From contig NZ_AP027736.1 of assembly GCF_030296675.1 (NCBI RefSeq), positions 1,488,001 through 1,552,000 of the forward strand: DNA of 64,000 nucleotides, in the 5' to 3' direction. The position numbers were made by a program, and so were the translations under genes. Every line of letters starts with the position of its first letter. Position 1 is the first letter of the stretch. The stretch is from Demequina sediminis. Its GTDB lineage: Bacteria > Actinomycetota > Actinomycetes > Actinomycetales > Demequinaceae. The notes beneath the pieces are model-generated. The model did not search any database, was not told the origin of the DNA, and saw nothing but the letters and a program-made list of their open reading frames with translations. This document shows, one piece after another, positions 1-63,093 of this stretch.

Positions 1-748
1 CCGCGTCCCAGCGGCGTGGACATGTCCGTGAGGAGCGCGGACGTCACCACGCCCGCGTCGGTGCCCAGGTCGACCATGGTGCGCGCGAGTTCGAGCGCCT
101 GCGCGCGGTCCTTCATGAACGCGCCCGTGCCCACCTTGACGTCGAGCACCAGCACGCCGGTGCCCTCGGCGATCTTCTTGGACATGATGGACGATGCGAT
201 GAGCGGGATGGCCTCGACCGTTCCGGTGACATCGCGCAGCGCATAGAGCTTCTTGTCGGCCGGCGCGAGGCCCGAGCCCGCGGCGCAGATGACCGCGCCG
301 ACGTCCTCGAGCTGGCGCAGCATCTCGTCGTTGGACAACGCGGCGCGCCAGCCGGGGATCGACTCGAGCTTGTCGAGCGTGCCGCCGGTGTGGCCGAGCC
401 CGCGGCCCGACAACTGCGGCACCGCGACGCCGCACGCGGCCACGAGCGGCGCGAGCGGAAGCGTGATCTTGTCGCCCACGCCACCCGTCGAATGCTTGTC
501 CGCGGTGGGTCGCGACAGCGAAGAAAAGTCGAGCCGCTCCCCCGTGTTGATCATCGCCTGGGTCCATCGCGCGATCTCCGCGCGGCTCATGCCACGCTGC
601 AGGATCGCCATCGCGAGGAGCTCATCTGCTCGTCCGCGACCACGCCGCGCGTGTACGCGTCGACGACCCAGTCGATCTGGTCGTCGGTCAGGGTGCCGCC
701 GTCTCGCTTGACGCGAATGACGTCGACGGCGTCGTGGCGCTCGGCCAT
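1..748 (-). CDS. deoA: Thymidine phosphorylase, 3' end beyond window, frameshifted
   Basis: Converts thymidine and phosphate to thymine and 2-deoxyribose-1-phosphate in the cytosol (pyrimidine salvage). The N-terminus (DAVDVIRVKRDGG, then DEQM) is typical of the family. The downstream frame carries the family signature KHSTGGVGDK and runs in frame to the window edge. The two parts lie in different frames: around 615-622 one base is missing after DEQMS, and adding one restores LAMAIL. The ATG at 748 overlaps the cdd stop (TGATG), so the two genes are translationally coupled at the end of a nucleoside uptake operon. The frameshift is probably a sequence error, because conservation continues unbroken on both sides. 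The C-terminal half is outside the window. Confidence 0.9.
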
Positions 749-1143
749 CAGTGCTCCTCGAGGTGTTGGGGCCCGAAGGCCCACGGAAGAAGGTCGTCCA
801 GCGTGAGGGTGCCGTCAGGGCCGTCGATCAGCAGCCCGGGGCCGCCGAACTCGTACAGCAACTGCCTGCACCGCCCGCAGGGCTGCAGCGGCGCACCCGC
901 GGCGTCGACGCACGCGAACGCGATCAGCCTGCTGCCCAGCGCGTCCGTGTGCAGCTTCGACACGAGTGCGCATTCGGCGCACAGCGTGAGCCCGTAGCTC
1001 GCGTTCTCGACGTTCGCGCCCGTGACGATCTCGCCGGTGTCGGTGAGGGCCGCCGCCCCCACCTTGAACGTCGAGTACGGCACGTACGCGCGCGCATTCG
1101 CCTCGCGCGCCTTGGCACGGAGGAGGTCCCAGTCGATATCCAT
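748..1143 (-). CDS. cdd: Cytidine deaminase
   Basis: Deaminates cytidine and deoxycytidine to uridine and deoxyuridine. The 131-residue length matches the homotetrameric short form. Zinc ligands are visible as C55 in the CAE motif and C89/C92 in PCGRC, with E57 as the proton shuttle. Substrate contacts lie in GANVENASYG at residues 42-51. It sits 3 bases after the permease gene and overlaps deoA by one base. In this operon imported cytidine would be converted to uridine, and the neighbouring phosphorylase completes pyrimidine nucleoside breakdown. The gene is intact and the assignment is firm. Confidence 0.96.
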   Translation of the reverse strand: MDIDWDLLRAKAREANARAYVPYSTFKVGAAALTDTGEIVTGANVENASYGLTLCAECALVSKLHTDALGSRLIAFACVDAAGAPLQPCGRCRQLLYEFGGPGLLIDGPDGTLTLDDLLPWAFGPQHLEEH

Positions 1144-1146
1144 GGC

Positions 1147-3665: not shown

Positions 3666-5176
<1,511 letters not shown>

Positions 5177-5271: not shown

Positions 5272-5289
5272 GGCCGTCGTCAATCGCGA

Positions 5290-6476: not shown

Positions 6477-7584
6477 TCACGCCGTTTCGAGCGAGGCGGA
6501 CGCGTCCTTCACGCGCTGGGCCGCGGACCGCACCGTGACCAGCAGGGCCTCGTCCGACTCGACCACCACGGCATCGTCCACCCCCACGATCACCACGGGC
6601 TTGGTGCCCCCCACGACGAGCGCCCCCGCGGCGCCCACGGCGCCGACGGGCGCGGTGCGGTGGATGCTCACGGCGGTTCCCGCGACGCCCGAGAGCTCCG
6701 CGAGCGAGTCGAAGTCGCCCACGTCGTGCCACTCGAAGGTCGCGGGCACCACGGCCACGCCGCCCGCGGCCGCCACGGGTTCGGCGATCGCGTGGTCGAT
6801 CGCGATGCGGGTCAGCGTGGGCCACACGCGCGCGAGCACCTCGGCGCGAGCGGGCCCGTCCCACGCGGCGGCGATCTCCTCACCCCTGCCGCGAGCGCGG
6901 GCTGCAGCCGGTCGAGGTGGCCCAGCAGGGCATCGGTCCTCACGACGAACATCCCCGCGTTCCACGCGAAGCCGCCGCGCGCGAGCATTCCCGCCGCGGT
7001 CTCGGCGTCGGGCTTCTCCGTGAACGCGACCACATGGCGCGCCGCGCCGGTGAGCGCCTCTCCCATCTCGATGTAGCCGAAGGCGGTCGAGGGCTCGGTG
7101 GGCTCGATACCGATCACGACGACCTTGCCCTCGCGCGCGACCTCGACCGCCCGCGCGACCGTCGCACGAAAGGACGCGGCGTCGGGGATGAGGTGGTCCG
7201 CCGCGAAGGATCCGATGACCCGCGGCCCCCACCGATGCTCGACCACCGCCGCCGCGAGCGCGATCGCGGCCATCGAGTCGCGCGGGCTGGGCTCGGTGAG
7301 CAGGTCCTCGCGGGGCAGGTCGAGCTGGCCGGCCACGGCGTCGACGTGCCGCTCCCCCGTCACCACCAGCACCCGGCTCGACAGCGGGCGCACGCGCGCG
7401 ACCGTGTCCTGAATGAGGGTCGCCCCCGTGCCCAGCAGATCGAGCAGGAACTTGGGCCGGTGAGGCTGTGACAGCGGCCACAGCCGCGAGCCCACTCCCC
7501 CGCGGGGATCACGATGACGAGGTCGTCGATCTCGGTCGCCGACGGAGTCTCGCCGGACGCTGGCGCGCTGTGCTCGGAGGTCAT
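6477..7584 (-). CDS. manC: Mannose-1-phosphate guanylyltransferase, two frameshifts
   Basis: Makes GDP-mannose from mannose-1-phosphate and GTP. Three frame segments together give a complete protein of about 369 residues. The N-terminus includes IVIPAGGVGSRLWPLS, the nucleotide-binding motif, which only appears after restoring one base in a G run near 7497. The centre has ITGERH-like VVTGERHVDA and FTEKPD. The C-terminal part, with FEWHDVGDFDSL, follows a second missing base near 6880. The corrected length is a multiple of three. It is divergent from sdhC with about 50 bases between them. It could be read as a pseudogene, but both breaks look like sequence errors. Confidence 0.85.
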
Positions 7585-8494: not shown

Positions 8495-10260
8495 CCCACC
8501 ACGAGTACGACGTCGTCATCGTCGGCGCCGGCGGCGCCGGCATGCGAGCCGCCCTGGAGAGCTCTCAGCGGGCCCGCACCGCGGTGCTCACCAAGCTCTA
8601 CCCCACGCGCTCGCACACCGGAGCGGCTCAGGGCGGCATGGCCGCGGCCCTTGCCAACGTCGAGGACGACTCGGCCGAGTGGCACGTGTTCGACACGATC
8701 AAGGGTGGCGACTACCTGGTGGACCAGGACGCCGCGGAGATCCTGTGCAACGAGGCGATCGACGCGGTGCTCGACCTCGAGAAGATGGGCCTGCCCTTCA
8801 ACCGCACGCCCGACGGCAAGGTGGACCAGCGCCGCTTCGGCGGTCACACCCGCAACCATGGCGAGGCCGCCGTGCGGCGCGCGTGCTACTCCGCCGACCG
8901 CACGGGCCACATGATCCTGCAGACGCTCTACCAGCAGTGCATCAAGCAGGAGGTCGAGTTCTTCAACGAGTACTACGTGCTCGACCTCATCCTCGACGGC
9001 GACCCTCAGCAGGCCGGCCCCGGCGAGGAGGTCGCGGTGGCGGGCGTGGTCGCTCTCGAGCTGTCGACGGGCGAGGTGCACACCTTCCGCGCGAAGTCCG
9101 TGATCTTCGCGACCGGCGGCGCAGGCAAGATCTTCAAGACGACGTCGAACGCGCACACGCTCACGGGCGACGGCATGGGCATCGCGCTCACCGCCGGGCT
9201 CCCGCTCGAGGACATGGAGTTCTTCCAGTTCCACCCGACGGGCCTCGCGGGCCTGGGCATCCTGCTGTCCGAGGCCGCGCGCGGCGAGGGCGGAATCCTG
9301 CGCAACTCCGAGGGCGAGCGCTTCATGGAGCGCTACGCCCCCACCATCAAGGACCTCGCGCCGCGCGACATGGTCGCGCGTGCGATGGCCAACGAGGTTC
9401 GCGAGGGCCGCGGCGCGGGTCCCCACAAGGACTACGTATTGCTCGATCTCACGCACCTCGAGCCCGCCCACATCGACGAGAAGCTCCCTGATATCACCGA
9501 GTTCGCGCGCACCTACCTGGGCGTCGAGCCGTACACCGAGCCGGTGCCGGTCTACCCCACCGCGCACTACGCGATGGGTGGCATCCCCACCACGGTGAAG
9601 GGCGAGGTGCTGCGCAACAACACCGACGTCGTCAAGGGCCTCTACGCCGCCGGGGAATGCGCGTGCGTGTCCGTCCACGGCGCCAACCGGCTGGGCACCA
9701 ACTCGCTGCTCGACATCAACGTGTTCGGCCGCCGCGCGGGAATCGCCGCCGCCGAGTACGCGGCCTCCGTGGAGGCCGCCCCCGTCTTGCGGGACGATGC
9801 CGCGGCCAGGGTCGAGGGCATCGTCACCCGTCTCTTGGGGACCGTGGGCGGCGAGGGCACCGCGCGCGTGGCCGACGTCCGCAAGGCCCTCCAGGAGACC
9901 ATGGACCGCAACGTCCAGGTGTTCCGCGACGCGGCCTCGCTCGAGGAGGCGCGCGGCGTGGTCGCCGAGCTCAAGAAGCGCTACGAGTCCGTCGCGATCC
10001 ACGACCGCGGGCGCCGCTTCAACACGGACCTGCTCGAGGCGATCGAGCTGGGCTTCCTGCTCGAGATCGCCGAGGTCGTGGTCGAGGGTGCGCTCGCTCG
10101 CGAGGAGTCCCGCGGCGGCCACTACCGCGAGGACTTCCCCACGCGCGACGACGAGCGCTTCCTCCACCACACGATGGCCTATGCGACGCCCGACGGTGTG
10201 CGGCTCGACACCAAGCCCGTGGTGATCACCAAGTACCAGCCCATGGAGAGGAAGTACTGA
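8491..10260 (+). CDS. sdhA: Succinate dehydrogenase flavoprotein subunit
   Basis: The catalytic flavoprotein oxidising succinate to fumarate, 589 residues. The FAD dinucleotide fold is [10 protein letters not shown] at residues 12-21. H42 in SHTGAAQGG is the expected covalent FAD attachment site. The active-site region [12 protein letters not shown] and the [14 protein letters not shown] block are present. The C-terminal part carries the [10 protein letters not shown] motif of the family. The ATG overlaps the sdhD stop. The gene is intact, so it supports the view that breaks in neighbouring genes are not operon decay. Confidence 0.97.
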
Positions 10261-13097: not shown

Positions 13098-13126
13098 GGC
13101 ATCGTCCCGGGGGACGGGACGATGCC
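13098..13126 (-). terminator. Perfect 11-bp hairpin at the tatB 3' end
   Basis: GGCATCGTCCC (13098-13108) and GGGACGATGCC (13116-13126) are exact inverted copies around a 7-base loop. The right arm ends on the first base of the tatB stop codon, so the structure forms immediately behind tatB. It probably ends or attenuates the sigE-anti-sigma-htrA-tatB transcript before trpS. Both arms contain the 9-mer GGACGATGC that recurs throughout this window. Confidence 0.65.
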
Positions 13127-16391: not shown

Positions 16392-17021
16392 ATGAGCACC
16401 GAAGCAGCGAACTGGGCCTACGCGGAGGACTTCGTCGAGGAGGACCGCGTGATCCTCGCGGCACGCGACGTCGCCGACCAGCTGGGATGCGTGCCGGTTC
16501 TCCCGGGCGCGGCCCGCGCGATCGAGGTCCTGGCGAGGACGATGCGCGCGAGCTCCGCGGTCGAGATCGGCACCGGCGCGGGGGTGTCGCTTACGTATCT
16601 GCTGCGCGGGATGGGCCCGAGCGGCGTCGTGACGACCATCGACGTCGAGCCCGAGCACCACCGCGCGGCGCGGCAGACCATCGCCGCCGGCGGATTCGCG
16701 CCCGAGCGCGCCCGCATGATCACGGGCCGCGCCCTCGACGTGCTGCCGCGCCTCACGGACGGCGGCTACGACATCGTCCTCATCGACGCGCGCAAGTCGG
16801 AGTACCCCGCGTACCTCGAGCACGCGATGCGGCTGTTGCGCTCGGGCGGCCTGCTTCTCATCGACAACGCGCTGTGGCATGGGCGTGTGCCCGACCCCGC
16901 TCAGCGGGATAAGGACACGACCGCGGTGAGGGAGACCCTCAAGGCAGTGCGAGAGGACGAGCGGCTCACGGTGGCGCTGCTGCCCTCGGGAGACGGCCTC
17001 CTCGCGGCCGTCAAGGAGTGA
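16392..17021 (+). CDS. Class I SAM-dependent O-methyltransferase
   Basis: A 209-residue cytosolic methyltransferase of the catechol/caffeoyl-CoA O-methyltransferase type. The SAM motif EIGTGAGVSLTYLLRG lies around residues 58-73, followed by TTIDVEPEHH, and DIVLIDARKSEYPAYLEHA supplies the metal/SAM acidic residues. AAGGAGG at 16381-16387 is four bases before ATG 16392, which favours this start over the GTG three bases earlier. Its natural substrate is unknown. It is divergent from sigE, as Rv1220c is in Mycobacterium tuberculosis. Confidence 0.9.
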   Translation: MSTEAANWAYAEDFVEEDRVILAARDVADQLGCVPVLPGAARAIEVLARTMRASSAVEIGTGAGVSLTYLLRGMGPSGVVTTIDVEPEHHRAARQTIAAGGFAPERARMITGRALDVLPRLTDGGYDIVLIDARKSEYPAYLEHAMRLLRSGGLLLIDNALWHGRVPDPAQRDKDTTAVRETLKAVREDERLTVALLPSGDGLLAAVKE

Positions 17022-17292: not shown

Positions 17293-18021
17293 CTAGCCGT
17301 CCTCACGGGTGAGCGCGACCATGCGCGCCACGGCCTCGTCCGGATCGTCGGTGACGGACACCAACTCGAGGTCGGTGGGAGAGATCTTGCCGTCGGCCGC
17401 GAGCGTGTCACGCATCCAGTCGAGCAGGCCGCCCCAGTAGGACGTGCCGACCAGCACGATCGGGAACCGGCGCACCGTGCGGGTCTGGACCAGGGTGAGG
17501 CACTCGAAGAGCTCGTCGAGGGTGCCGTATCCGCCCGGCAGTGCGATGAATCCCTGGGCGTACTTCACGAACATGGTCTTGCGCGCGAAGAAGTAGCGGA
17601 AGTTGATGCCCAGGTTGACGTGCTCGTTGACGCCCTGTTCGAAGGGGAGCTCGATACCGAGCCCCACGGAGGTGCCGCCCGCCTCGGAGGCGCCCTTGTT
17701 CGCGGCCTCCATGCAGCCGGGGCCGCCGCCCGTGATGACGGCGTAGCCCTCCTCGACCAGGCGCCTGCCCACCTCGACGCCCGCCTCGTACTCCCACGAG
17801 CCGGGGGCGGACCGCGCGGAGCCGAACACGGTGATCGCGGGACCGAGCTCCGCGAGCGCGCCGAAGCCCTCGACGAACTCCGACTGGATGCGTAGCACGC
17901 GCCACGGGTCGTCATGCAGCCAGTCGGGACGATGCTGCCCGTCAAGCAGGCGCTCAGAGGTGGAGGTGGTGGGCACGTTGCGGCCGCGCAACAGGACGGG
18001 GCCCTTGCGGTACTCCTTCAT
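17293..18021 (-). CDS. LOG-family protein (TIGR00730), predicted nucleotide phosphoribohydrolase
   Basis: A 242-residue Rossmann-like protein. The family motifs ITGGGPGCMEAANKGA and LPGGYGTLDELFE form the nucleotide site. LOG proteins release cytokinin-type bases from nucleoside monophosphates; the actual bacterial substrate is often another nucleotide. It lies ten bases before dapE in transcription order and on the same strand, a linkage also seen in mycobacteria, where the LOG gene follows the dap genes. The gene is intact. Confidence 0.9.
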   Translation of the reverse strand: MKEYRKGPVLLRGRNVPTTSTSERLLDGQHRPDWLHDDPWRVLRIQSEFVEGFGALAELGPAITVFGSARSAPGSWEYEAGVEVGRRLVEEGYAVITGGGPGCMEAANKGASEAGGTSVGLGIELPFEQGVNEHVNLGINFRYFFARKTMFVKYAQGFIALPGGYGTLDELFECLTLVQTRTVRRFPIVLVGTSYWGGLLDWMRDTLAADGKISPTDLELVSVTDDPDEAVARMVALTREDG

Positions 18022-18030: not shown

Positions 18031-19122
18031 TCAGGACGTAAGCCAGGCCTCGAGACCGGCGCGGCACTGGTGGATCTCGATGACGGGACAGCGCTCGTCG
18101 TCGGCGTGGGCAAGTTCGGGGTCGCCCGGCCCGTAGTTGACCGCGGGGATCCCCAGCTCCCCGAACCGCGCGACGTCGGTCCACCCCTGCTTCGCGCGCG
18201 GAGCGGCGACACCCGTGCGCGCGACCGACTCGGCGAAGGACGCCGCGAGCGGCGCGTCGAGTCCGGGCCGCGCGGCGCCCGACAGGTCCGTGTAGACCAG
18301 GTCGTAGCCGTCGATGCCAGAGGAGGCGACGAGCGCCTCGAGGCGCGACTGTGCCTCCGCGAGCGTCCAGCGGGGAGCGAATCGATAGTTGAGCGTCACG
18401 ATGCATTCGTCGGGGATGACGTTGCCCGCGATGCCGCCGGAGATGCGCACCGCGTTGACGCCCTCGCGATAGTCGAGCCCGTCGACGGTGAAGGTCTCGG
18501 GCTCGTGCTCCGCGAGCACGGCGAGCAGCGGCGCGGCGCGGTGCACCGCGTTGAGTCCCTTCCACGCCCGCGCACTGTGCGCGGCCTTGCCGTGGACGCG
18601 AACCTCGGCGCGCATCGTCCCGTTGCAGCCGCCCTCGATGACGCCCTGCGTGGGCTCGCACAGCACCGCGAAGTCGCCCGCGACCAGGTCGGGGCGCTCG
18701 CGGGCGATCCGGCCCAGCCCATTGCGGTCGGCCTCGACCTCCTCCTGGTCGTAGAAGACCCACGTGATGTCGCGCGTCGGCGCCGTGAGCGCGGCCGCGA
18801 GCGACAGCTGCACCGCGACCCCCGCCTTCATGTCGACCGCCCCGCGCCCCACGAGGTCGCCGTCGGCGGACCACTCGGAGGGCACGTTGCCCTTGATCGG
18901 CACGGTGTCAAGGTGGCCGGCGATCACCACGCGCTCGGGGCGACCCAGGTGAGTGCGCGCGACGATCGCGTTGCCCAGGCGGGTGACCTCGAGATGAACG
19001 AGGGGCGTGAGCGCGGCCTCGACGGCGTCGGCGATCCTGTCCTCGTTGCCCGAGACCGAGGGGATGTCGACGAGCGCCTTGGCCAGCAGCTCGACGGGGA
19101 CGGCAAGGTCCAGGTGCGTCAT
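18031..19122 (-). CDS. dapE: Succinyl-diaminopimelate desuccinylase
   Basis: Removes succinate from N-succinyl-LL-diaminopimelate to give LL-DAP for lysine and peptidoglycan, 363 residues. An M20 metallopeptidase: VIAGHLDTVP carries the first metal ligand and catalytic Asp, DMKAGVAVQ the bridging Asp, and VFYDQEE the catalytic Glu pair. The dimerisation domain includes NGTMRAEVRVHGKAAHSARAWKG. The C-terminal metal histidine is in IEIHQCRAGLE. It starts 30 bases from the divergent dapD. With dapD and dapC this is most of the succinylase branch of lysine synthesis. Confidence 0.95.
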   Translation of the reverse strand: MTHLDLAVPVELLAKALVDIPSVSGNEDRIADAVEAALTPLVHLEVTRLGNAIVARTHLGRPERVVIAGHLDTVPIKGNVPSEWSADGDLVGRGAVDMKAGVAVQLSLAAALTAPTRDITWVFYDQEEVEADRNGLGRIARERPDLVAGDFAVLCEPTQGVIEGGCNGTMRAEVRVHGKAAHSARAWKGLNAVHRAAPLLAVLAEHEPETFTVDGLDYREGVNAVRISGGIAGNVIPDECIVTLNYRFAPRWTLAEAQSRLEALVASSGIDGYDLVYTDLSGAARPGLDAPLAASFAESVARTGVAAPRAKQGWTDVARFGELGIPAVNYGPGDPELAHADDERCPVIEIHQCRAGLEAWLTS

Positions 19123-20101: not shown

Positions 20102-20964
20102 GTGGCATCGCGGCGCACCGCCGCCGCGGTGACCCTGCTCCTCCTCGCGACGGGCGGCGCGGTCTACGGCTCGTACCTGTGGAGTGAGAGCGCGCCGACT
20201 CCCCCACCGGGTGAGCAGTGCACGGTCGCGCTGGGCGAGTCGACGGACACGCTGAGCGCCGAGCAGGCCGCGAACGCCGCGCTCATCGCCGCGGCCTCGG
20301 CGCGCCTTGAGATGCCCGCGCGCGCCGCGACCATCGGCATCGCGACGGCCCTGCAGGAGTCTTCGCTGCGCAACATCGACCACGGCGACCGCGACTCGCT
20401 CGGCCTCTTCCAGCAGCGTCCGTCGCAGGGGTGGGGAACCGTCGAGGAGATCCTCGATCCGTACTACTCGACGGACACGTTCTACGCGGCGCTCGCGAAG
20501 GTCGACGGCTGGCAGGACATGGAGGTCACGGTCGCCGCGCAGACGGTGCAGAGGTCGGGCTTCCCCGACGCGTACGCGACGCGAGAGGCGTCCGCGCGGC
20601 TGTGGGCCTCGGCGCTGCGCGGTCACTCGGGGGTGCTCGCCGTGACGTGCGACGTGTCGGCTGGAGGCGGCACGACGGCGCAGGACTTCGCCGCGCGCAT
20701 CGACCGCGACTTCGGGGCGGGCGCCTACGCGGTCGAGGTGGCCTCCGCGACGAGCGAGGCGATCTGGCTCTCCGTGTCGGGGGCGGACGCGACGGCGAAC
20801 GACGCCTTCGCGGCATGGGCGGTCGCGGTGGCCCGCGAGGAATCCGTCGCGGCGGTCGCGGTGGACGATGCCGGCTGGCAGCAGGGCGAGGGACTCACCA
20901 CTGTCGAGGTGCCCCGGCCGGGCGAGGGGGTGGCCGTGAGGCTCACGCCCCTGGCCGGCGAGGC

Positions 20965-23745: not shown

Positions 23746-23857
23746 TGCGCCTCCTCCATCCAGGGGCTTGCGGGAACGCCGTCATCATACCGCCGTCGGA
23801 GCGCCCGTCGGACGCGAGGGAGGGCGCGCGCGCCCGCTCCCGGCCGCATCGTCCCCG

Positions 23858-25674
23858 CTACGTGCACGTGACTCCGTTGTTGGGCTTGTACGTCCACGTG
23901 AGCGACTCCGTGTCCACCAGCGCGCCGTCCAGGAACACCTTGCGCGTGTTCGTGATGGTGAAGCCGTCCGCGCCGATCGGCGTGTCGATGCAGCCCTCGT
24001 GGTCGGATTCGACCATCACTGCCGGCGTGACGTTGCTGCGGCCCGAGGCCGAGGTCTCGACCGTGAAGTGGGGCGTCGACCACACGTCGACGTGCAGGCG
24101 CCCCTCGTGCACATACGAGTTGAGCGTCAGCGCGTACGGGGTGTTGTTGCGGAACTTGACGTCGATCGCGCCCACGTAGATGGTCGCCTCGCGGCCGGCG
24201 GGATAGCGGGAGAAGTACTTGGAGTGAGGACGATGCTCGACGTCCTCGAGCCCCGCGAAGTAGGCGGCGTTGTAGAGGGTCGTGGCCATCTGCGAGAGGC
24301 CCCCGCCCAGCGCGTCCGCGAGGAAGCCATCGACGATCACGTGGGCCGGGTAGTACCCGTTGTCGGCCGTGATCGGGCTGAGCGCGTCGAGCAGCGAGAA
24401 CGTCTCCCCGGGCTTGACGACGGTTCCCGTGACGAGCTCAGCGCCACGCACGAGGTTCTTGGTGCGGATCGTCTCGTTGGTGAGCGGCGTCGAGAACTCG
24501 GCGACGCGGTCCGTGAAGTCGCTGACGCCGAGGTCGTCGCTCGTGATGGCCGGCTCGGTGTCGCGGTACGGTAGCTCGCCCGCGCGGTTCGCGCTCTGCG
24601 CCGCGGTCGCGACGGCCTCGCCCAGGAGGGCACCGTCGATCGCGCGTCCGGGCTGCGACTGGGTCACCTGGATGCGGTGCGAGGCGTCGAACGAGAACGA
24701 GGCCCCCGTGGCCGCGCTGACCAGCGACGGCTCGGCGGATTCGAGCTCGGCCGCGAGGCTCTCGCCGTCGATCGCGAGGGCGAGGCCGCCCTCCTCGACC
24801 ACGACGGAGCCGTGCCTCGTGAGCTGCTCGGAGGAGACCACCACGTCGCCGTTCGGCCCGGTCATCGCGACGTCCCCCGCGAGCACCTCGGCGTTGAGGA
24901 CACGCGCAAACTCCTCGGCGTCCGCGGTCGACACGACGGGCTCGCTCGGTGCGGTCACCGCCTGAAACGAGTCGACGGGCCACGCGTCGGCGAGGCCCGC
25001 GGAGGTCGCCTCGACGTCGACGGCGACGCCCTCGCTCGAGGGCTCCGCGCTCGCGCCGGTGGATGCGATGCTCACCCCAGCGTCCTGCGCGGGGAGGTCG
25101 AGCACCGTCGCCGCCTCCGTGACGGCGTCGGCGAGCGCGTCGCTGTCGACAGACGTGACGGGGTCGATGTCGCGCTGCCCGCCCGTGAAGGCGCGCATCA
25201 CGGTCAGGGGGTCGAGGCTGAAGCTGAGCAGCGAGTCGACGGTCGCGGCGGCGTCGACCGCGAGGCCAGAGTCCGCGGGCACGATCTCGACCGAGGTGGT
25301 TCCCGCCGTCACGGCGACCGGCGCCTCGCCCGCCGCGGCCGCTGCGGGCTCGAGAGCTTCGAGGGCGCCGTCGCGTCCCAGTCCGCCCACGTCGACACCC
25401 AGCACGGTGGTCCCCGACGGGATGCGGTCGGCCGCATACGCGGCCGCTCCCACGTAGCCACCCACCGCGAGCACCAGCGCGGCCGCGATGCCCCAGCGCG
25501 CCCACCGCCGACGCGGGCGGGGGCGGCGGTCTCGTCGGACGGCGCGTCGTCGGACGACGCGTTGTCGGATGATGCGTTGTCGGATGATGCGGCCGGGGCA
25601 TCGTCCTCCGTCAGATACGACGGCAGCGCCTCCTCGACGTCGTCCGCCACCTCATTTGATCGCTTGTCCGCCAT
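23858..25674 (-). CDS. VanW-family protein with peptidoglycan-binding-type repeats, frameshifted
   Basis: About 605 residues after correction. It has an acidic, Ser-Asp-rich cytoplasmic N-terminus, a membrane span (AAALVLAVGGYVGAAAYAA), two peptidoglycan-binding-4-like segments (GTTVLGVDVGGLGRDGALE and a second near residues 250-330), then the VanW domain with NLVRGAELVTGTVVKPGETFS and ADALGGGLSQMATTLYNAA. VanW proteins are found in vancomycin operons and widely elsewhere; their reaction is unknown but tied to the cell wall. One base is missing near 25508, between the acidic leader and the membrane span. GTG 25680 is an alternative start, overlapping the upstream gene stop. Confidence 0.85.
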
Positions 25675-29686: not shown

Positions 29687-30259
29687 ATGCAGACCTTTCG
29701 TGCCCGCTCGTCCGTCGTGTGGGGATGGATCGCCGTCGGCGCCGGCGCCGCACTCGCGCTTCTCCACCTCGTCACCGTGGGCTTCTCTCGCGGCACGGGC
29801 GGCTTCGGGCTGGGTGTCGCGGCGATCGCGGTCGGGACCGCCGCGTTCCTGCGCCCGCGCGTCGAGGCCCACGACGACGCCGTGGTGCTGCGCAATACGA
29901 CGCACGCCGTGAGCATTCCCTTCGCCCGGCTCGGCGCGATCGAGACGCGCTGGTCGCTCACCCTCGTGGACGACGCCGGCCGTCGGTGGGGCGCCTTCGC
30001 CGCGCCCGCGCCGGGGGCGGCGGCATCGATGCGCCGTCCCGCGGGAGAGGACGATGCCTCGCTCGGGGGCCGCCCGAGCGACCGCCCCGGCACGGCCTCG
30101 GGTGACGCGGCCGCGATGGTCCACGACGCGTGGGAGGACTGGCGTGCGGGTCACCCCGACGGCGAGAGCGACGCCGCGGTCGAGCGCACGCCCGACCTCG
30201 TGGGCGTCGCGCTCGCGGTGCTCGCGATCGCCGGCGGCGCGTGGGGCCTCTTCGGCTAG
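29687..30259 (+). CDS. Membrane protein with bacterial PH-like domain
   Basis: A 190-residue protein of unknown function. Two hydrophobic helices at residues about 10-28 and 37-55 are followed by a stretch (DDAVVLRNTTHAVSIPFARL) like the start of the actinobacterial PH domain (PF10756 type), then a low-complexity hydrophilic linker and a final hydrophobic helix at 171-189. The family call is by pattern only. The gene stands alone between the CGNR and RamB-like genes and converges on the latter with a gap of nine bases. Confidence 0.6.
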   Translation: MQTFRARSSVVWGWIAVGAGAALALLHLVTVGFSRGTGGFGLGVAAIAVGTAAFLRPRVEAHDDAVVLRNTTHAVSIPFARLGAIETRWSLTLVDDAGRRWGAFAAPAPGAAASMRRPAGEDDASLGGRPSDRPGTASGDAAAMVHDAWEDWRAGHPDGESDAAVERTPDLVGVALAVLAIAGGAWGLFG

Positions 30260-31836: not shown

Positions 31837-33673
31837 ATGACCGTCACGGAACACCGCGCCACCACCCTCCACGACCTCGCCCACCCGTCGATCGCGGCCT
31901 GGGTCGACTCCCTCGCCGCGCACGCCCTGCCCGACGCGGTCGTGTGGTGCGGCGGCTCGACCGCCGAGCGCAGGGGACTCGTGGCGGGCATGGTCGATTC
32001 CGGCACGCTCGTGCCCGTCGAGGCGCGGCCCGGCAGCTACCTCGCGCGCTCAGACCCGAGCGACGTCGCCCGCGTGGAGTCCCGCACCTTCATCTGTTCG
32101 CGACGCGAGGAGGACGCCGGGCCCACCAACCACTGGGTGCCGCCCGCCGCGATGCGCGAGACGCTGCACGGCCTGTTCAGGGGGACGATGCGCGGGAGGA
32201 CGATGTACGTGGTCCCGTTCGCGATGGGCCCGGTGGGCGGACCGCTCACGCGGTACGGGGTCCAGGTCACCGATTCGCCGTACGTGGTCGCGAGCATGGG
32301 CATCATGACGCGCATGGGGCGCGAGGCCCTCACCGCGATCGACTCCGGCACCGCGTGGGTGCGGTGCGTGCACTCGGTGGGTGCGCCCCTCAAGCCGGGC
32401 GAGGCCGACATCGCGTGGCCGTGCAACGCGACCAAGTACATCTCGCACTTCCCCGAGTCGCGCGAGGTGTGGTCATACGGTTCGGCGTACGGCGGCAACG
32501 CGATCCTCGCCAAGAAGGCGTTCGCGCTGCGCATCGCGAGCGCGATCGGCCAGGACGAGGGCTGGCTCGCGGCGCACATGCTGCTGCTCAAGGTGACCAC
32601 CCCGCGCGGCAGGGCCTTCCACGTCGCGGCGGCCTTCCCCAGCGCATGCGGCAAGACCAACTTCGCGATGCTGAGGCCCACGATCCCCGGCTGGACGGTT
32701 GAGACGCTGGGCGACGACATCGCGTGGATCGCTCCCGGACCCGACGGCCGACTGCGGGCCATCAACCCCGAGGCCGGCTTCTTTGGCGTCGCGCCAGGCA
32801 CCAGCCGCGACACCAATCCCGTCGCGATGGACATGCTGGACCGCGACGTCGTCTTCACCAACGTCGCCCTCACCGACGACGGCGACGTCTGGTGGGAGGG
32901 CATGACCGCCGACCCCCGCCCACCTCACCGACTGGACTGGCGCGGACTGGACCCCCGCATCGTCCTCCCCCGCCGCCCATCCCAATGCGCGCTTCACCGT
33001 CGCCGCGACCCGCTGCGCCACGCTCGCCGACGACTGGGACGCCCCCGAGGGAGTCGCGCTCGACGCGATCATCTTCGGCGGCAGGCGGGCGACCACTGTG
33101 CCGCTCGTCGCGCAGGCGCGCGACTGGGAGCACGGGATGCTCATGGGAGCCACGCTCGCGTCCGAGCGCACCGCGGCGGCGGAGGGCACGGTGGGCGAGC
33201 TGCGCCGCGACCCCTTCGCGATGCTGCCGTTCTGCGGCGTGCACATGGCCGACCACTGGCGACACTGGCTCGAGGTGGGCGCCGCGGCCGAGCGCTCGGG
33301 CGGCGCCCCCGCGGTGTTCCAGGTCAACTGGTTCCGCCGCGGCGAGTCAGGCGAGTTCCTGTGGCCCGGCTTCGGGGAGAACATCCATGTGCTCGCGTGG
33401 ATCCTCGACAGGCTCGAGGGGCGGGCCGATGCCGTCGAGGGCCCGTTCGGGCGCGTGCCGGCACCGGGGGCGATCGATCACGAGGCGGCCGGAGTGTCAC
33501 GCGAGGCGTGGGCCGCGCTGTTCGCGCTCGACCGGGACGCGCTCACGGCAGAGGCGGAGGACGCCGACGCGTTCCTCGCGTCCTACGGCGAGCGGGTGCC
33601 CGCCGCACTGCGCGCTCAGCTTGCGCTCATGCGGGCGTCGATCGACGCGCTGGGTTCGGAGTCCTCCGGCTGA
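31837..33673 (+). CDS. pckG: Phosphoenolpyruvate carboxykinase (GTP), frameshifted
   Basis: Converts oxaloacetate and GTP to PEP, the first step of gluconeogenesis; about 612 residues after correction. Motifs are the kinase loop [44 protein letters not shown] and [21 protein letters not shown], cited in part. The frame breaks in a five-C run at 32913-32917: two missing bases give DPPAHLTDW, as family members read, while one extra base would give DPAHLTDW. A C7 run undercalled as C5 fits best. The 3' end overlaps the convergent MFS gene by 58 bases. Regulation by the RamB-like neighbour is inferred. Confidence 0.92.
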
Positions 33674-35218: not shown

Positions 35219-35274
35219 TTCTAGCGCAAAGGGTCCGCTACCCTGTCGGCATCGTCCATCCGAGGGAGGCGCAC

Positions 35275-36469: not shown

Positions 36470-36494
36470 GACCCCACCCCAGCATCGTCCACGT

Positions 36495-39471: not shown

Positions 39472-40557
39472 CTACACGTTAAACCGGAACTCCACGACGT
39501 CGCCGTCCTGCATCACGTAGTCCTTGCCCTCGATGCGCACCTTGCCCGCCGACTTCGCGGATGCCATCGACCCGGCCTCGATGAGGTCGTGGAAGTGCAC
39601 CACCTCGGCCTTGATGAAGCCGCGCTCGAAGTCGGTGTGGATCACGCCGGCTGCCTGCGGCGCGGTCCAGCCCTTGCGGATGGTCCACGCGCGCGCCTCC
39701 TTGGGGCCCGCGGTGAGGTACGTCTGCAGCCCGAGCGTGTCGAAGCCCACGCGCGCGAGCTGATCCAGCCCCGACTCGTCCTGGCCGTTCTCCGCGAGCA
39801 TCTCGCGGGCCTCGTCCTCGGTCAGCTCGACCAGCTCGGACTCGAACTTCGCGTCGAGGAAGATCGCCTCGGCCGGCGCGACCTGGGCCGCGAGAGCGGC
39901 CTTCTTGTCAGCGTCCAGCAGCCCGGCATCGTCCGTGTTGAAGACATAGATGAAGGGCTTGGCGGTGAGCAGGTTGAGCTCGCGCACGTCCGCGAGGTCG
40001 AGCTTCGCGGCGGCGGCGCCCGCACTGAGCGCGGTGCCCGACTCGAGGATCTCCTTGGCGGTCTGGACCGCGGCGAGGAAGGCGGGTTCGGCCTTCTTGG
40101 CACGCACCTCCTTCTCGAGGCGCGGGATCGCCTTCTCGACCGTCTGCAGGTCCGCCAGGATGAGCTCGGTGTTGATGGTCTCGATGTCCGAGGCGGCGTC
40201 GACCTTGCCGTCGACGTGCACCACGTCCGGGTCCTCGAACGCGCGCGTCACCTGGCAGATCGCATCGGCCTCGCGGATGTTCGCGAGGAATGCGTTGCCG
40301 AGGCCCTCGCCCTCCGACGCGCCCTTGACGATTCCCGCGATGTCCACGAACGACACCGTCGCGGGGACCTCGCGCTCGGAGCCGAACACCGTCGCGAGCT
40401 GGCCCAGCCGCGCGTCAGGGAGCGGAACCACGCCCACGTTGGGTTCGATGGTCGCGAACGGGTAGTTCGCGGCCAGGACCTCGGCGCGGGTGAGGGCGTT
40501 GAACAGGGTCGACTTGCCGACATTCGGGAGTCCGACGATTCCAATGGTGAGTGCCAC
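39472..40557 (-). CDS. ychF: Redox-regulated ATPase YchF/OLA1
   Basis: A universally conserved OBG-related P-loop protein of 361 residues that prefers ATP. G1 is GLPNVGKST at residues 8-16, G3 is DIAGIVKGASEGEGLG, and the specificity loop FIYVFNTDD departs from the GTPase NKxD, in line with ATP use. A coiled-coil insertion near 130-200 and the C-terminal TGS domain (TYLTAGPKEARAWTI...) follow. The GTG start at 40557 gives VALTIGIVGLPN. Two inverted copies of a recurrent motif lie upstream. Confidence 0.95.
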   Translation of the reverse strand: MALTIGIVGLPNVGKSTLFNALTRAEVLAANYPFATIEPNVGVVPLPDARLGQLATVFGSEREVPATVSFVDIAGIVKGASEGEGLGNAFLANIREADAICQVTRAFEDPDVVHVDGKVDAASDIETINTELILADLQTVEKAIPRLEKEVRAKKAEPAFLAAVQTAKEILESGTALSAGAAAAKLDLADVRELNLLTAKPFIYVFNTDDAGLLDADKKAALAAQVAPAEAIFLDAKFESELVELTEDEAREMLAENGQDESGLDQLARVGFDTLGLQTYLTAGPKEARAWTIRKGWTAPQAAGVIHTDFERGFIKAEVVHFHDLIEAGSMASAKSAGKVRIEGKDYVMQDGDVVEFRFNV

Positions 40558-40587: not shown

Positions 40588-40630
40588 GGCATCGTCCCCT
40601 CGTCGCGCCACCCGGCACGGGGACGATGCC
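40588..40630. repeat. Inverted pair of the recurrent GGACGATGC motif
   Basis: GGCATCGTCCCC (40588-40599) and GGGGACGATGCC (40619-40630) are exact 12-base inverted copies with 19 bases between. They lie between the divergent ychF and small 40674 gene, so they cannot be a normal transcript end for either. They could form a cruciform or be a binding site. The same 11-base core forms the hairpin behind tatB. Confidence 0.6.
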
Positions 40631-48858: not shown

Positions 48859-50139
48859 GTGACCGAGCCGACCACGCCCCCGCAGGACAACGAGCCGGCC
48901 CCGCACACGCTTCCCGCGACTGCGGCCGAGACCACGCCGGAGCGGCCGTGGCCCGTGCGCCACCTCTCCCCCAAGATCGGCGAGTTCGTGTCGCGCCTGC
49001 CCCCCGTGTGGGTCGAGGGGCAGGTCCTCAACGTCAAGCGCTGGCGACACCTGGTCTTCCTCACCCTGCGTGACACCGACGAGAACATGTCGCTCAGCGC
49101 GACGCTCCCCGCCAGCGCGGCCGATGCCCTGGGCACCGCCCTCACGGACGGCACCCGAGTCGTCATTCAGGCCAAGCCCGAATGGTGGACGCGATCCGGC
49201 ACGCTCCAGCTCGCCGGCAGGGACGTGCGCCAGGTCGGATTGGGAGACCTTCTGGCACGGCTCGAGGCACTCAAGGAGGCGCTCGCACGGGAGGGACTCT
49301 TCGACGCGGACCGCAAGGTCGCGCTGCCGTTCATCCCCCGCACCGTCGGCCTCGTATGCGCGACCCAGGGGGACGCGGAGCACGACGTGGTCGAGAACGC
49401 AAGCCGACGATGGCCGGGGGTGACGTTCGAGATTCGCCGCGTCACGGTGCAGGGCCCACGGGCCGTGCCGGAGACGGTGGCCGCAATCCGCGAGCTCGAC
49501 GCGCTTCCCGAGATCGACGTGATCGTGGTCGCGCGCGGCGGCGGGTCGTTCGAGGACCTCTTGCCCTTCAGCGACGAGTCGCTCGTGCGCGCGGCGGCGG
49601 CGTGCGCGACCCCGCTCGTGAGCGCAATCGGGCATGAGAAGGACTCTCCCCTGCTCGACCTCGTGGCCGACTACAGGGCCTCCACGCCCACGGACGCCGG
49701 CAAGCGCATCGTCCCCGATGCCGCCGCCGAGCGCGCGGGCCTGTCGAGAGCGAGGTCGTCGCTGGCCGGAGCGATGATCCGCACGGCGCGACGCGAGGCC
49801 GCGGCGCTCGAGGCACTCAGGGCCCGGCCCGTGCTCGCGCGGCCCGAGGCCATGTTGGCCCCCTTCGCGACCGCGCTCTCCCTCGCGACGGCGGCCTCAC
49901 ATCGCGCAATGCACGCGACTCTCGCGCAGGCGCGGTCCGAGACGGCGACGCTCGCGGCGACGCTGCGCGCCCTCAGTCCACAGAGCACGCTCGAGCGGGG
50001 CTTCGCGGTGGTGCGCACGCCGGACGGGACGGTCGTCTCGGACGCGACGTCCATCACCAAGGGCGACATCCTGCGGATCCGCCTGGCTCGCGGCGAGATC
50101 GAGGCCGTCGCACGGGGCCGCGCGCCGAAGCGCGCCTAG
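48859..50139 (+). CDS. xseA: Exodeoxyribonuclease VII large subunit
   Basis: Catalytic subunit of the single-strand-specific nuclease, 426 residues. It has an N-terminal OB fold ([21 protein letters not shown]), then the catalytic core with [21 protein letters not shown] and ISAIGHE-like [22 protein letters not shown], cited in part. A long helical region follows and the end [16 protein letters not shown] is typical. GTG 48859 is chosen as start because the preceding in-frame residues overlap ispH. The small subunit gene xseB lies 685 bases away, beyond an opposing gene. Confidence 0.94.
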
Positions 50140-53499: not shown

Positions 53500-53791
53500 G
53501 TCGGCTCCGCCACACGTTTTCGCGGCTCCGCCACACGGGTCTCGGCGTGTCGCCGGCGCGTCGCGCCCGCGGAGGCCGCTGAGGGCCGATGCAGAGCTTG
53601 CGTGTGTGGCGGAGCCGCAAGTAGGTGCGGCGTGGCAGCTTCCGACCCCTCGCGGTGAGCGTCGGCTCCGCCACACGTTTTCGCGGCTCCGCCACACGGG
53701 TCTCGGCGTGTCGCCGGCGCGTCGCGCCCGCGGAGGCCGCTGAGGGCCGATGCAGAGCTTGCGTGTGTGGCGGAGCCGCAAGTAGGTGCGG
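53500..53791. repeat. Two identical 131-bp repeats, 161 bp apart
   Basis: Copy 1 spans 53500-53630 and copy 2 spans 53661-53791, identical by eye. Each begins with two copies of GGCTCCGCCACACG and ends with its inverse, GTGTGGCGGAGCC, so each unit can fold back on itself. A 30-base unrelated spacer separates them. No transposase or coding gene is present; the readings through here are repetitive and not credible proteins. The stretch 53429-53948 holds no gene. Confidence 0.9.
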
Positions 53792-53868
53792 TGTGGCGGA
53801 GCCGCAAGTAGGTGCGGTGTGGCGGAGCCGCAAGTAGGTGCGGCGTGGCAGAGCCGCAAGTAGGTGCG
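53765..53868. repeat. Tandem 26-bp repeats, four copies
   Basis: The unit GTGTGGCGGAGCCGCAAGTA plus GGTGCG repeats directly at 53765, 53791, 53817 and 53843, the last with two changes (GCGTGGCAGAG). A partial fifth copy begins at 53869. The first unit is the tail of the second 131-bp repeat, so the array seems to have grown from that end. No spacers separate the units, unlike a CRISPR array. Confidence 0.9.
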
Positions 53869-59222: not shown

Positions 59223-59237
59223 CGCTCTCAGGGCATG

Positions 59238-59283: not shown

Positions 59284-59317
59284 CTGTTCGCGCCGGCTGT
59301 CCCGACCGGCGCGAGGT

Positions 59318-59797: not shown

Positions 59798-59910
59798 GCC
59801 GTGCTCCCGCCGTCGGGGGCGGCGCGGTGCCGCCCTGTCCTGTGCCGCCCACTGTAGGCGGAACGACGGGAATACGCAACGAGCCCGTTGCTTAATTCAC
59901 GGCTGGCCCG

Positions 59911-61098
59911 TCAGGCCGATGCGACGGTGGGCTTCGGCGCGCGGCCCAGGCAGCAGTCGGTCGGGCAGACGTCCTGCCACGGGCCCAGCGCCGTGAGCGC
60001 CACCCGCTCGCGCGGGGAGTCGCCCTCACGCGCCACGTGGCGCTCCTCGACCAGGTCCACGAGCCCCGCGACGAAAGCGGGATCGATCCCCACCGTGGGC
60101 ACGCGGACAGCCGCGAGGCCGCGCTCGGCGCACGTCTCGAGGGCCTCGTTGTCGAGGTCCCACGCGACCTCCATGTGGTCGGACACGAAGCCGATCGGCG
60201 AGATGACCACGCCCGTGACCGACTCCGGCAGCGCCTCGATAGCGTCGTTGATGTCAGGCTCGAGCCACGGCACCTCGGGCGCTCCGGAGCGCGACTGGAA
60301 GACGAGCGACCAGTCCACACCAGGGAATTCGTCGCCCACGGCATCCATGATGAGCGCCGCGACCGCGCGCTGCTGCTCGACGTACCAGCCCCCGCCCGCG
60401 TGCCACTCGTTCTCTCCGCCCGTGGGCACGGCCGTCCCGTCGGGGCGGGCCTCGCGCGGACCCGACAGGTCAGCCGCCGCGGTGGGAATCGAGTGCGTCG
60501 CGAACAACACGTGGGGCTGCGCGCCGGAGTCCGACTCGACCAGCTGGTGCAGTCCCGAGCGCACCGCCGCGACGTTGGGCGTCACGAAGCCGGGGTGATC
60601 GAAGTACTGGCGCACCTTGTGCAACTCGAGCTCGCCCTCGAGCCCCGTCTCCGCGAGCGCGGTCGCGAGGTCCTCGCGATACGCGCGACAGCCCGAGTAG
60701 CTCGAGAAGGCGGTCGTCACGAGGACCAGCACCTTGCGGTGGCCATCGGCGTGCAGCTCGCGCAGGGCATCGGCGAAGTAGGGCGCCCAGAAGCGGTTGC
60801 CCCAGTACACGGGCAGGCCCAGGCCGCGCTCGGCGATCTCGGCCTCAAGGGCGGCCTTGAGCGCGCGGTTCTGGTCGTTGATCGGGCTGATCCCGCCGAA
60901 GTGGCGGTAGTGGTGCGCGACCTCTTCGAGGCGCTCGTCCGGGATGCCGCGCCCGCGCGTGACGTTGCGCAGGTACGGGATGACGTCGTCCTGCCCCTCG
61001 GGTCCGCCGAATCCCGCGAGCAGGATCGCGTCGTACGTGGTCGCGGGCAGGATGCGGGACGATGCCGCGAGCGGCGGGAGCGTCGTGTCCTGGCTCAT
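59911..61098 (-). CDS. hemH: Coproporphyrin III ferrochelatase
   Basis: Inserts iron into coproporphyrin III in the coproporphyrin-dependent haem route, 395 residues. Core motifs are ILLAGFGGPEGQDDVIPYL, HYRHFGGISPIN, VYWGNRFWAPYFADAL and LFATHSIPTA with the metal-site histidine. The C-terminal CPTDCCLGR supplies cysteines for the [2Fe-2S] cluster found in actinobacterial enzymes. The ATG overlaps the hemQ stop as ATGA. Being in line with hemE, hemY and hemQ supports the coproporphyrin pathway rather than protoporphyrin. Confidence 0.95.
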   Translation of the reverse strand: MSQDTTLPPLAASSRILPATTYDAILLAGFGGPEGQDDVIPYLRNVTRGRGIPDERLEEVAHHYRHFGGISPINDQNRALKAALEAEIAERGLGLPVYWGNRFWAPYFADALRELHADGHRKVLVLVTTAFSSYSGCRAYREDLATALAETGLEGELELHKVRQYFDHPGFVTPNVAAVRSGLHQLVESDSGAQPHVLFATHSIPTAAADLSGPREARPDGTAVPTGGENEWHAGGGWYVEQQRAVAALIMDAVGDEFPGVDWSLVFQSRSGAPEVPWLEPDINDAIEALPESVTGVVISPIGFVSDHMEVAWDLDNEALETCAERGLAAVRVPTVGIDPAFVAGLVDLVEERHVAREGDSPRERVALTALGPWQDVCPTDCCLGRAPKPTVASA

Positions 61099-61769
61099 GA
61101 CGCGAGCACCTCCACTGCCTCGGCGGTGCTGACGCGGCGGCCGGTGTAGAACGGCAGTTCCTCGCGCACGTGGCGGCGAGCCTCCGTGTAGCGCAGGTCG
61201 CGCATCATGTCGACGAGCTCCGTGACGTCGTCCGCCTCCATCGGCAGCAGCCACTCGTAGTCGCCCAACGCGAAGGCCGCGACCGTGTTGGCGATCACTC
61301 CCGCGTACTTCGAGCCGGCGATGCCGTGCTCGCGGAGCATGACCGACCTCTCCTCCTCCGGCAGCAGGTACCACTCGTAGGACCGCACGAAGGGGTAGAC
61401 GGTCAGCCAGTCGCGCGCGCGCTCACCGCGCAAGAAGCCGGGGACGTGACGCTTGTTGAACTCGGCGTCACGGTGGACACCCGCCGCGGACCAGGTCAGA
61501 CGCGTGTCCGCGAGGAGTTCGGTCGCGCGCAGCTCGCGCAGCGCGAGCTGCAGGTCCTCGAGCACGGGGCCGTGGAGCCACAGCATGACGGTGCCGTCGG
61601 CGCGCAGTCCGGTGACGTCGTAGATGCCGCGCAGCGTGACGTCGTGCTCGGCGAGCTCGGCGACCGCGGCGTCGAAGTGCTCGACGACATCGGCGAGGTC
61701 CTCGTCCGGCGCGTCGAGCATGCCGTCGAGGACGGAGAACAGGGTGAAGCCGTGCGGGGTGTCGGTCAT
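61095..61769 (-). CDS. hemQ: Coproheme decarboxylase (HemQ/ChdC)
   Basis: Converts coproheme to haem b with hydrogen peroxide, 224 residues, chlorite-dismutase fold. The catalytic tyrosine is in TVYPFVRSYEWYLL, and FNKRHVPGFLRG and GDYEWLLPMEADD are family blocks. It is the enzyme that marks the coproporphyrin-dependent pathway of Gram-positive bacteria. It lies 37 bases after hemY and is translationally coupled to hemH. Confidence 0.95.
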   Translation of the reverse strand: MTDTPHGFTLFSVLDGMLDAPDEDLADVVEHFDAAVAELAEHDVTLRGIYDVTGLRADGTVMLWLHGPVLEDLQLALRELRATELLADTRLTWSAAGVHRDAEFNKRHVPGFLRGERARDWLTVYPFVRSYEWYLLPEEERSVMLREHGIAGSKYAGVIANTVAAFALGDYEWLLPMEADDVTELVDMMRDLRYTEARRHVREELPFYTGRRVSTAEAVEVLAS

Positions 61770-61806
61770 GAGGACATCATCCGTCGAGAGGGGCCCCCAG
61801 GGGAAA

Positions 61807-63093
61807 TTACCGGCCCGAACCCGCCGCCTCGGCCCCCACGATCGCCGCGAGACCGCTCAGCCCCGCCGCGGAGCCCACGAGCTCGAGGCCGGGCAGGGGC
61901 CTGATGTCGGCGACCCTCGCGGGCGAGGCGTCGGGCCACTCGACCACCGCGCTCGACCGCACGCTCTCGGGGCTCAGGTCGACCCCGAGCAGTCGGGAGG
62001 CGTCCGGCACCGCGTGCGCCACCAGGTCCTCCCCCGGATCGCGCAACGCATACGACAGCCGGACCACATGACTGCCGCGCGCGGCCTCGCGCAGCCACCG
62101 CCACTTGGCGGTCGCATGCGTGAGCGCCTTCGCGCGCGTCACGCCGTCGAGTGCGAGCACACCCGTCCCACGAGGGGCGGCATCGAGGTCGGGGGCGTCG
62201 AGCACGAGCGTCACCAGCGCGACCCTGTGCTGGGCGGGCGGGTCGGGCAGGACGGGCACGAGGGTCCGCGCCGCCGCCTGCGGCACCGCGAGCACGAGGG
62301 TGTCGGCGACCAGCGTCCCTCCACCGGCCCTTACCCTCCACGCGCCGTCGACGCGCTCGGCATGCGCCGCGGCGGTCCCCGCGACGAGCCTCACTCCCGC
62401 CTCGCGCGCGGACTCCGCGAGCGCCTCGGTGAGCCTCCACATCCCGCCGCGCAGCCCCAGCACCGCGGAGCCGGCGGGCGCGAGCGCGCGGCGCCGCTCG
62501 GCCAGCGCGGTGAGGCTGCCCGCCGCTCGCAGCTGGGCCGGCAGCGTCGGGTCGATCGCCGCCAGCGGAAGCTCGTCGAGGGGGCGCGAGTACACGCCCT
62601 GGAGGACGGGCGCGACCAGCAGGTCCGCGACCCCCGCGCCCAGCCGGGTCCTCACGAGGGACCCGACCGTGGCATCGTCCCTCACCTCACCCAGGGGGCG
62701 GGTGCGTTCGAGCGCGGCCTCCGCGGCGGCACCCCAGCCGATCACGCTGCGGACGTCGGCCAGCAGCGGCCGGGTGGGAATGCCCAGCCATCCCGTGGTC
62801 GGCAGCGGGTAGGCGCGCGAGGGGGTCACGACCCACGCGGGTGAACGCGTCGGCGCCACGATGTCGCCCTCAAGTCCCAGCTCGCGCGCGAGCGCCGCGA
62901 CGGCATCGGTCCGCGTCGCGAAGGACTCGGCTCCCGCGTCGAGCGTGAGGCCGGCGAGGGACAGCGGCGAGACGCGCCCTCCCCATCCCTGCCCCGCCTC
63001 GAGCACGGTGACCACGGATCCGCGGCGCGCGTGGCGACGCGCGGCCAGCAGTCCGGCGACCCCGCCCCCGACGACGAGGACGCGCTCAGCCAC
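61807..63093 (-). CDS. hemY: Coproporphyrinogen III oxidase (HemY/CgoX)
   Basis: An oxygen-dependent FAD enzyme, 428 residues, that oxidises coproporphyrinogen III to coproporphyrin III. The FAD site is VLVVGGGVAGLLAARRHARRG, cited in part, with EAGQGWGGRVSP and LDAGAESFATR. LVAPVLQGVYSR and LGLRGGMWRLTEAL are subfamily blocks. The GTG start at 63093 lies 8 bases inside the end of hemE. A continuous reading into upstream hemE sequence exists only because hemE is shifted, so the apparent fusion is an artefact. Confidence 0.92.
   Translation of the reverse strand: MAERVLVVGGGVAGLLAARRHARRGSVVTVLEAGQGWGGRVSPLSLAGLTLDAGAESFATRTDAVAALARELGLEGDIVAPTRSPAWVVTPSRAYPLPTTGWLGIPTRPLLADVRSVIGWGAAAEAALERTRPLGEVRDDATVGSLVRTRLGAGVADLLVAPVLQGVYSRPLDELPLAAIDPTLPAQLRAAGSLTALAERRRALAPAGSAVLGLRGGMWRLTEALAESAREAGVRLVAGTAAAHAERVDGAWRVRAGGGTLVADTLVLAVPQAAARTLVPVLPDPPAQHRVALVTLVLDAPDLDAAPRGTGVLALDGVTRAKALTHATAKWRWLREAARGSHVVRLSYALRDPGEDLVAHAVPDASRLLGVDLSPESVRSSAVVEWPDASPARVADIRPLPGLELVGSAAGLSGLAAIVGAEAAGSGR

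Follow-up and report, generated by a model that had tools for sequence, protein, structure and literature searches.

A candidate DNA uptake sequence in Demequina

In a 2025 paper, DNA uptake sequences are described as known only in the Neisseriaceae and the Pasteurellaceae. Copy numbers are 1,465 in H. influenzae and 1,892 in N. meningitidis (PMC7811141), and the dialects of the DNA uptake sequence (DUS) of the Neisseriaceae follow phylogeny, their core positions being constant (PMC3630211). A nine-base word, GGACGATGC, that is strongly over-represented in a 64,000-nucleotide stretch of the Demequina sediminis genome (NCBI RefSeq assembly GCF_030296675.1, contig NZ_AP027736.1, positions 1,488,001 to 1,552,000; the window) is probably the uptake signal of a DUS-like natural transformation system in Demequina. 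It is so interpreted because its copy numbers are like those of the DUS and of the uptake signal sequence (USS) of the Pasteurellaceae, because it has dialects and weaker flanking preferences, and because its copies lie within and between genes on both strands. The original prediction, made from the letters of the window, had likened the word to DNA uptake sequences, with a binding site for a chromosome-wide protein as another option; the former is best supported by the pattern of the word and the machinery encoded in the genome, from which we infer preferential uptake.

The word resembles the Neisseriaceae DUS in its length (9-12 bases), in its copy number (of the order of a thousand or more), in its genic and intergenic copies and inverted pairs, in its several phylogeny-following dialects with common core positions, and in the accompanying type IV pilus and Com genes (PMC3630211, PMC6370729, PMC3868556). 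Unlike the DUS, for which the minor pilin ComP is the receptor, the Demequina word has an unrelated sequence, occurs in another phylum and is known from sequence alone, and its intergenic copies are densest between divergent genes. Similarity to the Pasteurellaceae USS extends to a nine-base core, weaker flanking bases and a copy number of the same order (PMC7811141, PMC12616744), and the second sequence subtype of the USS (PMC3630211) may be compared with the Demequina dialects; the cores, however, are unrelated, and the flanks of the USS are AT-rich whereas the Demequina word has GG 12-13 bases downstream of the start of its core. Micrococcus luteus is likewise an actinobacterium with comEA and comEC and is naturally transformable, but its competence uses Flp/Tad pili, and an uptake sequence goes unmentioned in the available portion of the source (PMC6370729). 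The Demequina word is also comparable to HIP1 as a short word strongly over-represented, but is non-palindromic and has dialects. HIP1 of cyanobacteria is a hugely over-represented short palindromic word, for which we know of no dialects of the Demequina kind.

In the proposed mechanism, the type IV pilus machinery would carry a surface receptor that binds free double-stranded DNA at the word; retraction by PilT would then hand the DNA to ComEA and ComEC, and a strand would recombine into the chromosome. Because word-bearing DNA would be taken up preferentially, copies would accumulate and be kept on either strand throughout the chromosome, with least hindrance in intergenic DNA; a changed receptor would move the word, producing the dialects of species groups. 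The word looks like a species-specific password for DNA of the cell's own kind, as in a few other bacteria, and is most likely a signal of the same kind as the DUS and USS with an independent sequence in a new phylum. Actinomycetota have no outer membrane, and if the proposal is true, the uptake-word strategy does not require one; natural competence and a practical transformation signal would be predicted in Demequina, and a genus of 44 genomes with repeated dialect switches could serve studies of receptor-signal co-evolution and genetic isolation. A broader proposal, to which we give slightly better than even chances, is that sequence-specific uptake has a third, separate origin in a monoderm phylum, that a pilin of the type IV pilus, either the orphan or one from the operon, recognizes the word, that three or more dialects act as barriers within the genus, and that one of these, the C dialect described below, was also adopted by at least one genome outside it (G359). 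Among the titles and abstract openings searched, which cover the literature in part, there is no report of an uptake word for Demequina, Cellulomonas, Actinomycetota, Gram-positives or Micrococcus luteus, and the literature matches listed for the 9-mer string are all unrelated.

Abundance and placement of the word

The window contains 23 exact copies of GGACGATGC, 11 on the plus and 12 on the minus strand, against a mean of 2.17 and a maximum of 7 in dinucleotide shuffles, none of 100 of which attained 23; no other 9-mer in the window has a higher Markov-3 score (23 vs 1.99 expected). The complete genome (G000; 2,705,399 bases in one contig) has 984 copies, 501 on one strand and 483 on the other, compared with 9 (4 + 5) for the reversed word. 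At its end this contig seems to duplicate roughly the first 73 kb (offset 2,632,397 bases; comparison of stretches L069 and L012), as in an untrimmed circular assembly, and for this reason the number of unique copies would be a few percent below 984.

Further statistics were obtained from a 1.244-Mb sample of the genome, consisting of the window and 59 stretches of 20 kb, the last of which partly repeats an earlier one (5 copies). The sample has 441 copies where a Markov-4 model expects 47, and the highest-ranking 9-mer is the word itself, with its sub-word leading the 8-mers and its extensions by one base the 10-mers. With genes assigned by our own simple gene caller (83 percent coding), 297 copies are coding (288/Mb) and 144 are noncoding or at gene edges (682/Mb), a 2.4-fold intergenic density. 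The coding copies are distributed over all six classes of frame and orientation (138, 58, 52, 25, 20 and 4) and far exceed the 56.2 +/- 6.0 (maximum 71) found in 60 synonymous-codon shuffles. Permuting the letters of the word 300 ways yielded a mean of 16.4 and a maximum of 193 coding copies, and a mean of 3.1 and a maximum of 18 noncoding copies. The Markov, permutation and synonymous-shuffle controls rule out both a composition artefact and the codon use of a single peptide. Thus the over-representation and even strand use that had been predicted hold genome-wide, as does the excess between genes, although two thirds of the copies are within genes and the predicted clustering is to that extent partial.

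No replication-strand bias was found in the sample, with 229 copies on the leading and 212 on the lagging strand (p = 0.45). The counts per 20 kb are near Poisson (index of dispersion 1.18, p = 0.17; 58 stretches), and copy density is unrelated to how far a stretch lies from the skew minimum. A Chi-like recombination word or KOPS-like segregation word would, like this one, be short, with G-rich flanks and about a thousand copies, but Chi and KOPS words are strand-biased with replication; the parity of the two strands rules out a strand-polar word, and together with the even density makes this explanation very improbable. Close pairs of any kind number 33 where roughly 21.5 are expected under uniform placement, and 12 of them are noncoding inverted pairs with gaps of up to 141 bases. 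There is also one 18-bp tandem array with three copies of the word, which reappears in the redundant contig end.

Flanking bases prefer R at -2, G at -1, C at +9, GG at +12/+13 and G at +16 in the D. sediminis genome, and the extended form is RGGGACGATGCCnnGG; information is low beyond about +18. The G's at +12 and +13 have frequencies of 0.74 and 0.70 in noncoding copies alone, so the flanking GG is no codon effect. It recurs in the D. sediminis genome, in pooled loci of named species with the same word and in D. globuliformis, and the G at +13 is found also in G014, G016 and G035, although the profiles of D. globuliformis and the latter three are drawn from just 32-51 copies each. In G009, over-represented ten-base words overlap into GCCCGACGCTGTGG, with GG in the same place. 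The base at +9 varies, being C in the D. sediminis genome and G in the pooled named species.

Dialects in Demequina and beyond

Three related words replace each other across 44 Demequina genomes: GGACGATGC (the A word), GGCCGATGC (the C word) and GSCCGACGCTG (the third word). The A word has 1280-1700 copies in nine of ten named Demequina and 89 in D. globuliformis, the species that led to the C word; it reaches at least 900 copies in 13 of 37 genus genomes, D. sediminis included. The C word has 718 to 2018 copies in 16 of 44 genomes; for its reversed control the totals across all 44 are 34 to 139. The third word came to light in genomes with few copies of either of these. In G009, GCCCGACGCT occurs 40 times in 120 kb (1.4 expected), and the third word has 809 copies there, 191 in G012, 137 in G003 and 79 in G032. 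G061 has 1749 copies of GGMCGATGC, which include 488 of the C word, leaving 1261 A words. At least 31 of the 44 genomes have over 700 copies of one of the words (the A word in 14, the C word in 16 and the third word in one), separate A-word counts being lacking for G059 and G063; in G001 and G027, none of the three words is clear.

The excess seen for the D. sediminis word is repeated in other dialect sets. In all eight further dialect sets the coding copies exceed the maximum of synonymous shuffles (the weakest excess being that of G003, 26 vs a mean of 15.4 and a maximum of 22), and the intergenic density is higher than the coding density, slightly so in G035 (331 vs 286/Mb). In G001, neither word is above its shuffle maximum.

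Among 347 genomes sampled from the order, GGMCGATGC reaches at least 900 copies in 25 of 28 Demequina and in one of 319 other genomes (G359, 1929 copies), the next highest being 828 in a 9.4-Mb genome. G359 belongs to family f11 and genus g11, the other sampled members of which have at most 579 copies. In 20 kb of G359 the C word occurs five times and the A word not at all; its word is apparently the C dialect. In family f20 (G246, G105, G276 and G286) the frequency of GGMCGATGC is intermediate, about 190-240/Mb (for example, 626 in 3.0 Mb) with a control of about 20-30/Mb, and the word there is perhaps a related dialect.

Evolution of sites and dialects

On a tree of AlaS from 20 genomes, with dialects assigned by our own count thresholds, the dialects are clustered yet changed at least six times (A two, C three, third dialect three). 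At orthologous sites among eight A species the A word is kept in 271 of 492 comparisons, against a background of 0.307 for nine-base windows of equal G+C; the C word is kept in 72 of 276, against 0.142 for windows whose G+C count is one lower than that of the C word. These comparisons are of genome pairs and are not independent. Where C genomes were compared at sites of the A word (n=126), the C word was the commonest word, with 16 occurrences to 2 of the A word; at C sites compared in A genomes (n=209), the C word occurred 18 times and the A word 16 times. A site is thus often retained, but with its sequence changed to the word of the local dialect. C words found in A genomes are not specially retained in other A genomes (8 of 54 vs 0.235).

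Two other explanations bear on these sites. The word may be over-represented for mutational, repair or other reasons unrelated to uptake, as a HIP1-like word, its function being read from a sequence pattern; however, GGACGATGC is non-palindromic with a spaced GG flank, is denser between genes and switches dialect at orthologous sites, which makes this improbable. That it is a short interspersed mobile repeat is hardly credible: the 18-bp tandem array and the presence of a different interspersed repeat in the same genome (see below) would be in keeping with one, but flank information is low beyond about +18, orthologous sites are common to several species, and two thirds of the copies are genic.

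Transformation machinery and candidate receptors

The com and pil genes that the original prediction had pointed to for an uptake system are present, most of the gene names for the type IV pilus and competence being our own reading of the sequences. ComEC (PF03772) is matched in 43 of 44 genomes, the exception being 85 percent complete, and a PilT-family match (TIGR01420) is over the cut-off in all 44. For most genomes a further ATPase match is listed one or two kilobases from PilT, pilB judging by the D. sediminis locus, in which the order is pilB (split), pilT, pilC, pilA, large minor pilins, pilD, pilM and pilN. In the same genome comEA is directly before comEC, and both follow leuS and degV; the closest relatives of a ComEA protein from this genome are those of named Demequina (Demequinaceae, Actinomycetota). 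Several alternative cassettes of PilA and minor pilins occur in the genus downstream of pilC (L240-L259).

A candidate receptor, so considered from its sequence and location, is an orphan prepilin, about 138 residues long, that has a pair of conserved cysteines at its C-terminal end and whose gene adjoins an acetyltransferase gene in 18 of 19 relatives (L311-L329) and is near metE in 17 of those 18; G014 has only a remnant. The N_methyl motif is its only Pfam content (four of four scanned), and the solved relatives of the one scanned are type IV pilins and pilin-like proteins. Like ComP of the Neisseriaceae, it is a small pilin encoded away from the main pilus operon. In an alignment of 29 of the 30 orphan-pilin loci (without G027), one column separates 12 A from 12 C sequences, Ile vs Val, with G059 and G063 assumed to be A from incomplete counts; this column is given no weight because the substitution is a conservative one, the alignment has about 150 columns, and shared descent was not corrected for.

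Two more prepilin genes are found in the D. sediminis genome at C1:2159781-2161178 (L310, L057), in a low-G+C, motif-poor stretch that is not beside metE and is possibly mobile.

The uptake signal weighed against an intracellular binding site

Several observations weigh against an uptake signal. In G000, G009 and G060, comEC is matched in separate pieces; in G000, frame changes split pilB, mltG and comEC, and because pilB and mltG are split as well, sequencing error is likely there (unproven). The presence of PilT and ComEC does not discriminate, since genomes in which the word is weak have both. A minor-pilin cassette of the type IV pilus was rejected as the receptor that sets the dialect, since PilA and minor-pilin types compared by eye at 20 loci show no agreement with the dialects: the short type occurs in D. 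pelophila (G022, dialect A), the long type in the other A genomes examined, and both types in C genomes. The orphan pilin profile matches at E<1e-40 in just 30 of 44 genomes. Among the matches listed, which extend to about E 1e-6, there are weaker ones in G018 (in the same place), G013 and others; the best match is a pilin of the type IV pilus operon in G000, G020, G011, G061, G036, G062, G019, G021 and G007, and in G005 a pilin without an assigned place. Because it is missing from several word-rich genomes, the orphan pilin is unlikely to be the only receptor and was rejected as such. Retention of the A word in the type IV pilus region is only slightly above background (23 of 75, 0.307, vs 0.235). 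Competence in Demequina is not reported in the literature searched, of which coverage was partial.

The placement of copies counts against uptake in two further respects. Between genes, copies are densest where the neighbouring genes diverge (1072/Mb; 722 for tandem and 655 for convergent neighbours), so that the word has no special tie to gene ends; judged by gene orientation only, convergent regions have no enrichment, unlike a simple association with terminators. Copy count correlates weakly with codon typicality (Spearman 0.34, p = 0.007), and the single copy in L057 (G+C 0.61) fits a link between few copies and foreign-looking DNA, but L064 (no copies) and L035 (one copy) are not untypical by codon score. 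A general scarcity of copies in foreign-looking DNA was therefore withdrawn as an argument; it had been minor support, and its loss left our estimate of the uptake reading unchanged.

The divergent peak is also what might be expected of the main rival explanation, that the word is bound inside the cell by a protein acting chromosome-wide (nucleoid-associated, segregation or global regulatory) and co-evolving with its site. About a thousand sites with extended flanks would suit such a protein, and co-evolving dialects would be expected of any protein-site pair. On the other hand, two thirds of the copies are inside genes at a fivefold synonymous excess, and there is no origin-to-terminus trend, clustering or strand polarity. 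Six or more changes of dialect would be unusual for a housekeeping protein, and at least that many are found on the 20-genome tree. On this evidence an intracellular protein is unlikely, and an uptake signal is preferred.

Copies in the window and other repeats

The original prediction had counted 20 copies, ten on each strand; all 20 positions are correct, and the three overlooked, at 6571..6579 (minus), 16537..16545 (plus) and 18612..18620 (minus), are all coding. Also coding are 189..197, 9792..9800, 17927..17935, 20863..20871, 24228..24236, 30049..30057 and 61057..61065 on the plus strand and 39926..39934, 49706..49714 and 62672..62680 on the minus strand, as well as 32183..32191 (plus) according to a low-scoring gene call. 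Intergenic copies on the minus strand are at 23846..23854, 25598..25606, 32957..32965, 35249..35257 (between divergent genes) and 36482..36490 (between convergent genes). Of two inverted pairs predicted to be intergenic, that of 40589..40597 (minus) and 40621..40629 (plus), with a gap of 23, is so, whereas that of 13099..13107 (minus) and 13117..13125 (plus), with a gap of 9, is inside a low-scoring, doubtful open reading frame; depending on that frame, the intergenic copies number 7 to 9 of 23, and 7 if it is accepted. The copies at 9792, 13099 and 13117 have the form GGGACGATGCC.

In G012, TTCACGTGAA words are repeated in L275-L279 and L257; these we take to resemble parS sites. The D. sediminis genome has a second repeat, CTCCGCCACAC, with 78 copies in the sample without L069, all of them intergenic and clustered, at spacings that are often 21, 26 or 78 bases. 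It is found in the window at about 53505-53801 (G000:C1:1541505 onward), at C1:318662-318787, at C1:333074-334203 and elsewhere, within a longer repeated unit that includes CATCGGCC, and looks like an interspersed element of the REP/MITE kind (repetitive extragenic palindrome or miniature inverted-repeat transposable element).

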